From Acidobacteriota bacterium (lineage in GTDB: Bacteria > Acidobacteriota > Vicinamibacteria > Vicinamibacterales > SCN-69-37), in NCBI GenBank assembly GCA_020853395.1, contig JADYYY010000011.1, forward strand, positions 1 to 64,000: DNA of 64,000 bases, in the 5' to 3' direction. A program made the position numbers and the translations under genes. Position 1 is the first letter of the stretch, and each line of letters starts with the position of its first letter. The notes below the pieces were generated by a model. That model was not told where the DNA came from. It saw only the letters and a list, made by a program, of their open reading frames with translations, and searched no databases. Below, piece by piece: positions 32,633 to 54,395 of this stretch.

Positions 32633-32663
32633 TTGACAACGACCTGGACGCCCGCCGTATGAT
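32633..32663 (+). promoter_or_regulatory. Sigma-70-like promoter of the MFS transcript
   Basis: TTGACA (32633-32638) is a perfect -35, followed after a longish 19-bp spacer by TATGAT (32658-32663), one mismatch from the -10 consensus. A start near 32670 would place the leader ORF ATG (32674) almost at the 5' end. It stands out against the GC-rich background. Confidence 0.6.
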
Positions 32664-32673
32664 TGCCGACTCG

Positions 32674-32808
32674 ATGTCCGTCCTCTCGATCACTTCGCGC
32701 GTGTCCTTCTGGCGTGCCTCCCGGCGTCTCGCAGGCGCCGGTACGCCGCAGGCCGTGCATTCGTGCGCGCTGACTCGCCGCGACGATCCGACCGCGAGCA
32801 CTGGATGA
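32674..32808 (+). CDS. Leader peptide ORF of the MFS attenuator
   Basis: A 44-codon frame starting four or so bases after the predicted transcript start (MSVLSITSRVSFWRASRR at its beginning, a TRRDDP stretch near the end) and stopping at TGA 32806-32808. The stop lies inside the left arm of the predicted antiterminator (32803-32817). It has no resemblance to a known protein. Its value is as a ribosome sensor: where the ribosome pauses would decide which hairpin forms. Coding status is inferred from this placement, not from homology. Confidence 0.45.
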   Translation: MSVLSITSRVSFWRASRRLAGAGTPQAVHSCALTRRDDPTASTG

Positions 32809-32877
32809 TCTGAGCCCAACATCACGGACCTGATTTCGAGGGCCATCATCCAGTTCGGATGATGGCCCTTTTCTTTT
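32803..32877 (+). terminator. Transcription attenuator: intrinsic terminator with competing antiterminator
   Basis: The terminator is GGGCCATCATCC (32840-32851), loop AGTTC, GGATGATGGCCC (32857-32868), then TTTTCTTTT: a perfect 12-bp stem with a U-tract, 21 bases before the MFS ATG. Upstream, GGATGAT and GCCC (32803-32809 and 32814-32817) can pair with the terminator's left arm (32840-32851), making a mutually exclusive antiterminator. A leader ORF ends at 32808 within that arm. Confidence 0.8.
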
Positions 32878-32897
32878 GCGGAAGGAGAGGGATCGTC

Positions 32898-34106
32898 ATG
32901 CGTCGCGCCGTCACCTTCGTGTCCCTGCACTGTCGCTGGCCGCCGGTGGTGTGGGTCGTCATCGGCGGCATGTTCGTCATGCGGACGGCGTTCTTCATGG
33001 CCTGGCCCTTTCTCGCGATCATCCTGAGCCGCGACTTCGGGATGAGCCCGTCCGGGATCGGCGCGCTGCTCGGCGGCGCCTTCCTCGTCAGCGCGCTCGC
33101 GGGGCTCTGGGCCGGCAACCTCGGCGACCAGTTCGGACCGGTGCGCTTGATGCTCGCCGGCTGCGGCCTGGCCGCTGCCGGATACGGGTTGCTCGCGACC
33201 GGCGCAGACGTCGCGGCGATCGCCGCGGGCGCGTTGCTGGTCGGCCTCTCCCGCGCGGCGCTCGAAGCGCCGGGCAAGGCGATCATCGCCGACTGCCTCG
33301 CGGATCGCGCGCAGCGTGATCTCGCGTTCCACCTGCGCTACTTCGCCATCAACCTCGGCGGCGCCATCGGTCCGCTGCTGGGCATCGTCTTCGGGCTCAC
33401 GGCCAGGCAGACGACGTTCTGGGTGACCGCGGCGACGCACGCCACGTTCGCTGCCGTCGTCGCGGCCGTCGCCGTGCCGGCTCACGCGGCCGCCGCGCCT
33501 GGAGCACGCGAGAGCCGGACGTTCCGCGCGGCCGCGCGCGTGCTGCGCGGCGACCGGCCGTTCCAGCTCCTCGTGCTCGCGATGTTCCTGACGATGGCCG
33601 CGTACGCGCAGCTCGAGTCGACGCTGATTCAGTACGTCAGCGGGCACGACGGCGCGGTCGGCGCGCGGCTCGTGACGGCGCTGCTCATGACGAACACCAT
33701 CACGATCGTCCTGTTCCAGTTTCCGCTGCTTCGGCTGCTCAGCCCGTATCGCGTCGAGGCGCGGATCCACGTCGGCCTCGCGCTCTTCGTGGCAGGGTTC
33801 ATCGCGTATGCGCTCCTGCCCGTGCGCGGCGTCGTGCCCTGGATCGTGGCCACGTGGGTGCTCAGCGTCGGCGAGGCCATCCTGTTCCCGACGCTGCAAC
33901 TGCACGTGGATCGGATCGCGCCCTCGCACCTCAAGGGCAGCTACTACGGCGCCGCGGGACTGAGCGCGATGGGGTTCGGCCTCGGGCCGCTCGTCGGCGG
34001 CGTGCTGCTCGAGCACGCCGGCGGTTCCGTGACGTTCTCCGTCACGGCGGCGGCGACCGCCGTCTGCGGCGTGTGCTATCGGCTGGCCGATCGCCTTCGC
34101 CGCTGA
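32898..34106 (+). CDS. MFS transporter (drug/metabolite exporter type)
   Basis: The ATG at 32898 has GGAGAGG seven bases upstream, giving 402 residues; the ATG at 32859 lies inside the terminator hairpin and is rejected. About twelve hydrophobic helices are visible. Motif A appears in loop 2-3 as GNLGDQFGPVRLM, and GxxxGPLLG/GLGPLVGG-type motif C-like segments occur. The family exports drugs or small metabolites using the proton gradient. Expression is probably controlled by the attenuator immediately upstream, a layout known for antibiotic-induced exporters. The substrate is unknown. Confidence 0.88.
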   Translation: MRRAVTFVSLHCRWPPVVWVVIGGMFVMRTAFFMAWPFLAIILSRDFGMSPSGIGALLGGAFLVSALAGLWAGNLGDQFGPVRLMLAGCGLAAAGYGLLATGADVAAIAAGALLVGLSRAALEAPGKAIIADCLADRAQRDLAFHLRYFAINLGGAIGPLLGIVFGLTARQTTFWVTAATHATFAAVVAAVAVPAHAAAAPGARESRTFRAAARVLRGDRPFQLLVLAMFLTMAAYAQLESTLIQYVSGHDGAVGARLVTALLMTNTITIVLFQFPLLRLLSPYRVEARIHVGLALFVAGFIAYALLPVRGVVPWIVATWVLSVGEAILFPTLQLHVDRIAPSHLKGSYYGAAGLSAMGFGLGPLVGGVLLEHAGGSVTFSVTAAATAVCGVCYRLADRLRR

Positions 34107-41402: not shown

Positions 41403-41486
41403 TGCGAAAGGGGGGAGTCGAACCCCCACGGCCTTCCGGCCACCGGATCCTAAGTCCGGCGCGTCTGCCAGTTCCGCCACTTTCGC
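41403..41486 (-). tRNA. tRNA-Leu(UAG)
   Basis: A complete cloverleaf reads on the minus strand. The acceptor stem GCGAAAG pairs with CTTTCGC, the anticodon stem CCGGA/TCCGG encloses loop CTTAGGA with anticodon TAG, and there is a long variable arm of the leucine type (TGGCCGGAAGGCCGT) and a GGGGG-TTCGACT-CCCCC T-arm. The discriminator is A. CCA is not encoded. Confidence 0.95.
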
Positions 41487-53989: not shown

Positions 53990-54066
53990 GCGCCCGTAGC
54001 TCAGCTGGATAGAGCGCCGGGCTTCGAACCCGTAGGTCGGGGGTTCAAATCCCTCCGGGCGCGCCA
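53990..54066 (+). tRNA. tRNA-Arg(UCG)
   Basis: A 77-base cloverleaf. Acceptor GCGCCCG pairs with CGGGCGC, the D arm is GCTC/GAGC, the anticodon loop CTTCGAA gives anticodon TCG, and the T arm is GGGGG-TTCAAAT-CCCTC. CCA is encoded. The first pair of the anticodon stem is C-T mismatched. Confidence 0.95.
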
Positions 54067-54162
54067 GTTTTCGCTCTCCGGTGCGACTGGCGCGGCGGCC
54101 GTCGACGGCCGGCCGGAGGCGCCATGCGTCGTGAAGATCGCGGTGGCGACGACCCCACCCGT

Positions 54163-54239
<77 letters not shown>

Positions 54240-54319
54240 TCCGCCGCTGTGCATGTGGTTCGGCGCGATGTCGCGTCATGCGTGCGACGCGCGGCGGTCG
54301 GTCAGCCAGATCCCTTCGT

Positions 54320-54395
54320 GGGCCCGTAGCTCAATTGGCAGAGCAGCAGACTCTTAATCTGTTGGTTGAAGGTTCGATTCCTTCCGGGCTCACCA
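54320..54395 (+). tRNA. tRNA-Lys(CUU)
   Basis: A 76-base cloverleaf. Acceptor GGGCCCG pairs with CGGGCTC (one G-T), anticodon stem GCAGA/TCTGT encloses CTCTTAA (anticodon CTT), and the T arm is GAAGG-TTCGATT-CCTTC with encoded CCA. Its 3' 46 bases (54350-54395) are repeated exactly at 57400-57445, so it is the integration site of the islet that follows. The gene itself remains intact. Confidence 0.96.

Follow-up and report, generated by a model that had tools for sequence, protein, structure and literature searches.

A conserved attenuator core of amino-acid operons in Acidobacteriota and its likely recruitment as a ribosome-controlled switch of an MFS exporter gene

In a 64,000-nucleotide stretch of DNA from an Acidobacteriota bacterium (the window), the gene of an MFS exporter is preceded by a promoter, a short open reading frame and a terminator-like hairpin, an arrangement which raises the question of whether transcription of the exporter is controlled by a ribosome translating a leader peptide and, if so, to which signal it would respond. 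A preliminary description of the locus had proposed such control. The elements that enter into the analysis are the following:

32633–32663, + strand: sigma-70-like promoter, TTGACA (32633–32638), spacer of 19, TATGAT (32658–32663); read directly from the sequence.
32674–32808, + strand: leader open reading frame of 44 codons, MSVLSITSRVSFWRASRRLAGAGTPQAVHSCALTRRDDPTASTG*, with start ATG at 32674–32676 and stop TGA at 32806–32808; sequence read directly, translation predicted.
32796–32883, + strand: whole switch core; covariance models R1 (74.8 bits) and R2 (62 bits), scores that are partly given by construction because the window is in both training sets.
32801–32817, + strand: 5' arm of the antiterminator, CTGGATGAT (32801–32809) and GCCC (32814–32817), containing the leader stop; folding and family alignment.
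32838–32877, + strand: intrinsic terminator with a stem of 12–14 bp, a 5-nt loop and a U-tract; sequence, scan, folding and family alignment.
32882–32889, + strand: Shine-Dalgarno sequence AAGGAGAG of the MFS gene, a good match; direct reading.
32898–34106, + strand: MFS exporter of 402 amino acids, start ATG at 32898; Pfam and NCBIfam.

The consensus-like promoter, the 44-codon leader frame and the exporter start of the preliminary description are all found in the sequence at the places given above. The promoter is missing from the list of our scanner, which accepted spacers of 16–18, because its spacer of 19 is one base over the limit, and this long distance between the −35 and −10 boxes counts against the explanation that we favor below. 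The leader ATG follows the −10 box after 10 nucleotides (TATGAT-N10-ATG), so that a transcript begun at the usual distance would be almost leaderless. By itself, a 44-codon open frame says little, because the DNA is rich in G+C and the same frame is already open from 31066 in the list of open reading frames. A second frame, suggested by sister sites ending in W/G-M-M-stop, terminates in TGG-ATG-ATC-TGA (stop at 32811–32813); its only start is a GTG about 30 nucleotides upstream of the core, and it was rejected. The exporter is assigned to Pfam MFS_1 (E=2.9e-37), and its nearest curated family in NCBIfam is YdeE (E=8.5e-31), where it stays below the cut-off with 107 bits vs 582. Its gene is located directly 3' of the switch, as in antibiotic-inducible efflux attenuators, and a role of the switch in drug efflux, as implied by the preliminary description, is plausible.

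The terminator hairpin GGGCCATCATCC-AGTTC-GGATGATGGCCC (32840–32868) contains the 12 perfect pairs previously described, or 14 with the flanking GA/TT, folds with an energy of −26.5 kcal/mol and is directly followed by the U-tract TTTTCTTTT (32869–32877). Within 2.3 kb, two terminator-like sites were found, of which it is one, against 0.7 in shuffled sequences. In an alternative pairing, the nine nucleotides of CTGGATGAT (32801–32809) combine with ATCATCCAG (32845–32853) of the terminator left arm, and GCCC (32814–32817) with GGGC (32840–32843). Taken alone, this antiterminator amounts to −20.0 kcal/mol, and an RNA truncated ahead of the terminator right arm folds into it. Any 9-mer complementary to the terminator left arm occurs in 106 of 20,000 dinucleotide shuffles of the leader (about 0.5%). 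Folding thus recovers the two exclusive structures that had been proposed for the segment 32803–32817, with the leader stop inside the competing arm. In the full fold, this arm is also able to pair with 32688–32692, a possible third element of the switch, which is a point against the explanation favored below.

From the window alone we derived a search pattern consisting of GGATGAT, a gap, ATCATCC, a loop and a second GGATGAT. Among 297 genomes of the phylum, it returned six matches including the window, all in forward and none in reverse orientation, and the reversed pattern used as control found none. It is this search that constitutes the independent test, because the window was part of the training sets of both covariance models. 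All six sites share GGATGAT, GGCCATCATCC, GGATGATGGCC and a U-rich tail, and the first residues encoded downstream of the five new ones point to three ilvD genes, one ilvB gene and one gene of a LysR-type regulator. A covariance model built from the six matches (R1) detected the core in 91 of 193 genomes of the class; a second model built from 90 members, the window included (R2), identified it in the same number of class genomes and in 58 of 396 genomes sampled from the phylum. Members carry a GGATGATG-type arm, GG(A/G)TGATG, which is complementary to the left arm of a terminator about 30 nucleotides away and is followed by the hairpin and U-tract. The arms of the window fit this family except for the last base, which makes the sequence GGATGATC instead of GGATGATG. 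They also share a layout with an ATG 8–12 nucleotides past the −10 box and an open frame that ends within the antiterminator arm; the window conforms to it, and its stop, at +10 of the core, is in the commonest position of the family. Many members display a TTGAC(A/T)-N17/18-TNTAAT promoter about 9–12 nucleotides before the leader ATG.

When the window and the family loci were compared with Rfam, no family matched the core: the loci gave only weak unrelated matches, and the matches of the window above the gathering score were confined to tRNAs (RF00005), of which three lie consecutively at 53990–54392 (+) and a separate one at 41403–41486 (−). The core thus defines a phylum-wide attenuator family with a nearly invariant center that is absent from Rfam 15. 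No report of it was found in a literature search, whose scope did not extend to Lopatovskaya and colleagues, 2010 (cited in PMC4833913). A survey from 2010 lists almost no predicted acidobacterial attenuator with an assigned function (PMC2965389).

The preliminary description had named covariation of both hairpins as a check and had made its proposal depend on whether relatives conserve the alternative pairing and the place of the leader stop. We addressed this for the attenuator family in an alignment of 90 members that was fitted to the terminator structure, in which the antiterminator is not contained. For the antiterminator, 88.6% of the cells are paired, compared to a mean of 85.0% in shuffles and at most 53.7% in slid controls, and its covariation score of 0.137 exceeds the 0.089 of the shuffles, none of 500 of which scores as high. 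Three of its pairs are changed on both sides, which is no excess over shuffles (3.6). For the terminator, 98.4% of the cells are paired and four pairs are changed on both sides, compared to 0.7 in shuffles, counts that lean in its favor because the alignment was fitted to its structure. In percentage paired and in covariation score, both structures surpass all shuffles and all slid controls. Covariation is clearest in the outer pair, which appears as C-G, U-A and G-C, and in the third pair of GGATGAT, which changes from A-U to G-C. Both hairpins are in this way conserved and covary across the 90 sites, and the alternative pairing and the location of the stop inside the antiterminator arm are likewise retained, the latter in nearly all members.

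To identify the genes controlled by the family, about 178 loci were fetched, of which 130 could be classified by tblastn against a reference set whose labels we had read from the protein sequences and not obtained from a family search. All 130 genes reside on the same strand as their switch (+). They comprise 37 hom, 36 ilvD (with one site counted twice), 20 ilvB, 19 pheA, seven aspartokinase, five LysR and three ilvA genes, two MFS genes (the window and locus L133) and one met8, and inspection of translations by eye added about eight cimA-like, two gltB, two ileS and two cysK-like genes and one ABC exporter. The family is consequently found mostly before genes of amino-acid biosynthesis. Leader starts were chosen by the best promoter match, and single peptides may be slightly too long or too short. 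Most of the peptides stop inside the antiterminator arm, and the majority are rich in residues that fit the pathway, with Val/Ile/Leu in ilv leaders, Thr and Met in those of aspartokinase and hom, and Cys before cysK-like genes. The median of the uncorrected best p is 6.8e-6 for aspartokinase (Thr/Met), 4.7e-4 for ilvB (Val/Ile/Leu) and 1e-4 for cysK-like genes (Cys). In ilvD leaders it reaches only 0.022 despite runs visible by eye, and the power of the enrichment test is for this reason limited. As judged from predicted peptides, an exchanged sensor attached to a retained switch is what ribosome-controlled attenuation would lead one to expect. Together with the covariation of both pairings and the position of the stop, these pathway-fitting leaders lend support to the mechanism put forward in the preliminary description.

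Several groups of loci merit separate mention. Leaders of the pheA type (L289, L290, L278, L286, L167 and others) are rich in Val, as in VGFVVVVVTVVRPTG, and not in Phe, which offers no simple fit to the downstream enzyme. Cysteine-rich leaders precede the cysK-like genes of L242 and L272 (MLVRACACPCCCPACC...) and the met8 gene of L151, which contains the run CPICSCCC, despite which its best-scoring residue group is Met/Thr; their composition suggests that the three loci may be cysteine-sensing attenuators of sulfur assimilation. In L105, L130, L141, L144 and L163, the core is placed directly before genes of LysR-type regulators, and the leaders are mostly rich in Val/Ile/Leu.

The sequence elements of the window, their exclusive pairings, the conservation and covariation in the family and its common layout are directly supported, and from them we infer a mechanism, which concerns the transcription start, the translation of the leader, the masking by the ribosome and, above all, the signal. 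The transcript would begin a few bases upstream of the leader ATG, whose frame would be translated without a normal 5' leader. A ribosome arriving at the stop (32806–32808) would cover CTGGATGAT, and probably also GCCC, upon which the terminator would form and the exporter remain off. With no ribosome present, or with one held up or slowed some seven or more codons before the stop, CTGGATGAT would be free to pair with the terminator left arm, no terminator would form and the exporter would be transcribed. Ribosome-targeting antibiotics might act as trigger, or slow rare codons such as the ACT at 32773. That the window element is an attenuator of the ribosome type appears very probable to us. 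Since its leader lacks a codon run for a single amino acid, slowed translation in general is a likelier signal than one amino acid, a proposal for which we see the chances as nearly balanced with a slight inclination in its favor. As a whole, we regard it as likely that the window contains a ribosome-controlled transcription attenuator which, built on a conserved core otherwise used for amino-acid biosynthesis operons, may respond to general translation slowing. In our best reading, the core of an amino-acid attenuator was taken over to switch efflux in response to translation stress in general.

This reading draws on features by which the window differs from its sister loci. In a test of limited power on a single 44-residue peptide, none of 17 residue groups is enriched in its leader (best p 0.11), and no run of control codons is found in it upstream of the stop, whereas many sister leaders are enriched. 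It contains very rare codons at places suited to the proposed mechanism, including the ACT at 32773; as proof of a sensor these were set aside, since the off-frame background has very rare codons too. An MFS orthologue with a leader was found in none of 14 genomes of the taxonomic family, 193 of the class or 297 of the phylum. The MFS protein of L133 (28% identical), which carries the core, was rejected as orthologue, as it obtains its highest scores with Bcr/CflA and Tet models, both below cut-off. The nearest homologues are gammaproteobacterial, with up to 44% identity, and are not accompanied by the core, their best upstream match being a terminator-like site of 20.6 bits. Since the closest relatives of the protein lack the core, the switch was probably joined to the MFS gene in the lineage of the window. 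A DNA similarity search with the leader in the taxonomic family of the window gave only short matches, and no second clear copy of the core turned up in its genome. Within this taxonomic family there is a single weak core match, L192 (G005:C125), a variant GGCCGACATCC...GGATGTCGGCC that precedes the gene of a protein resembling radical-SAM proteins and perhaps represents a diverged core.

Besides the window, the core precedes the exporters of L133 (G105:C6), which belongs to the MFS, and L186 (G127:C66), which is an ABC exporter according to Pfam. Neither leader shows a clear control run, and that of L133 is mildly rich in Thr/Met (p 0.025, stronger with a longer start). The leader ATG of both loci follows TTGACA-N18-TCTCCT, whose unusual −10 element they have in common. 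Small as their number is, three exporters with unspecific leaders would fit a core that was taken over to sense translation in general.

Leader-peptide attenuators are familiar from the amino-acid operons of proteobacteria, such as trp, his, thr, ilv, leu and phe. With these, the family shares a leader frame, the alternation of antiterminator and terminator and, as predicted for the window, a decision by ribosome position, and its sister sites are found before ilvD, ilvB, hom, pheA and ilvA. Unlike in classical attenuators, one nearly invariant core is common to operons of different amino-acid specificity, and in the window the leader lacks a run of control codons and precedes an exporter, its ATG is only about 10 nucleotides past the −10 box, and no separate 1:2 protector hairpin is established. 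A leader-peptide attenuator is also described for ilvBNC of Corynebacterium (PMC11857589), and drug-responsive leaders precede the efflux genes of bmrB-bmrCD (PMC4191407) and mef(E)L-mef(E)/mel (PMC4335068). In Bacillus subtilis, a leader frame of 53 codons, bmrB, and an attenuator control a multidrug exporter that is induced by ribosome-targeting antibiotics (PMC4191407). Leader length and the location of the attenuator before an exporter are similar in the window, but bmrCD encodes an ABC and not an MFS exporter and the terminator is inside the leader frame. Loss of leader translation lowered expression in this system (PMC4191407), whereas the two-state design of the window predicts higher expression without it. 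Rare codons matter in bmrB as well (PMC4191407). In Streptococcus, the eight-residue leader MTASMRLR is required for macrolide induction of mef(E)/mel, within a 5' region of 327 nucleotides containing four pairs of inverted repeats (PMC4335068). As in the window, an MFS-type efflux gene here follows a leader peptide, an anti-attenuator and a Rho-independent terminator, although the leader is much shorter than the 44 codons of the window.

A first alternative to general translation slowing holds that the window contains a true amino-acid attenuator, whose leader responds to a single amino acid, for which Thr with its rare codon ACT is a candidate, and whose MFS protein moves this or a related compound. 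The predominance of amino-acid genes behind the core speaks for it, as do the mildly Thr/Met-rich character of the L133 leader and the codon usage of the window leader, where ACT makes up three of five Thr codons compared to one of 138 in five neighboring genes. Off-frame, however, ACT accounts for about 14% of Thr codons, which renders three of five only mildly unusual, the leader shows no enriched amino acid, and switching on an exporter under starvation would be illogical unless the MFS protein imports; we thus consider this explanation unlikely. Still less probable is a relic, in which the core was copied before the MFS gene and its sensor lost, leaving a fixed low readthrough devoid of regulation. 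Such an origin would account for a leader without control codons and for a genome without another clear core copy, where the parent system may have been lost, but the terminator, the antiterminator arm and the layout of promoter, ATG and stop are all perfect where decay would be expected in one of them, and the core has been retained, with unspecific leaders, before two other exporters. Finally, control by a ligand, an RNA-binding protein or Rho/NusG-dependent pausing with an incidental leader frame, as might be suspected of a core without counterpart among described riboswitches and other Rfam families, is very improbable in view of a 5' part that changes completely in the family and yet encodes peptides rich in fitting amino acids, of the stop codon in the switch arm, and of the fact that no conserved aptamer-like domain is seen upstream of the core.

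Returning to an attenuator core recruited for a response to translation slowing, the family appears to us of larger consequence than the finding in the window itself. Whether a single phylum has employed a modular attenuator, with one nearly invariant core placed before many amino-acid operons and its leader exchanged, and with at least three recruitments, that of the window among them, to exporters whose leaders would sense no single amino acid and act as general translation-stress sensor, is a proposition that we hold to be evenly poised. With a shared core before operons of several specificities, nature provides a series whose switches and sensors vary independently of each other, and R1 and R2 offer a searchable model for the annotation of operons in a poorly studied phylum. 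The exporter cases suggest a route that may lead from a nutrient attenuator to a drug or stress switch.
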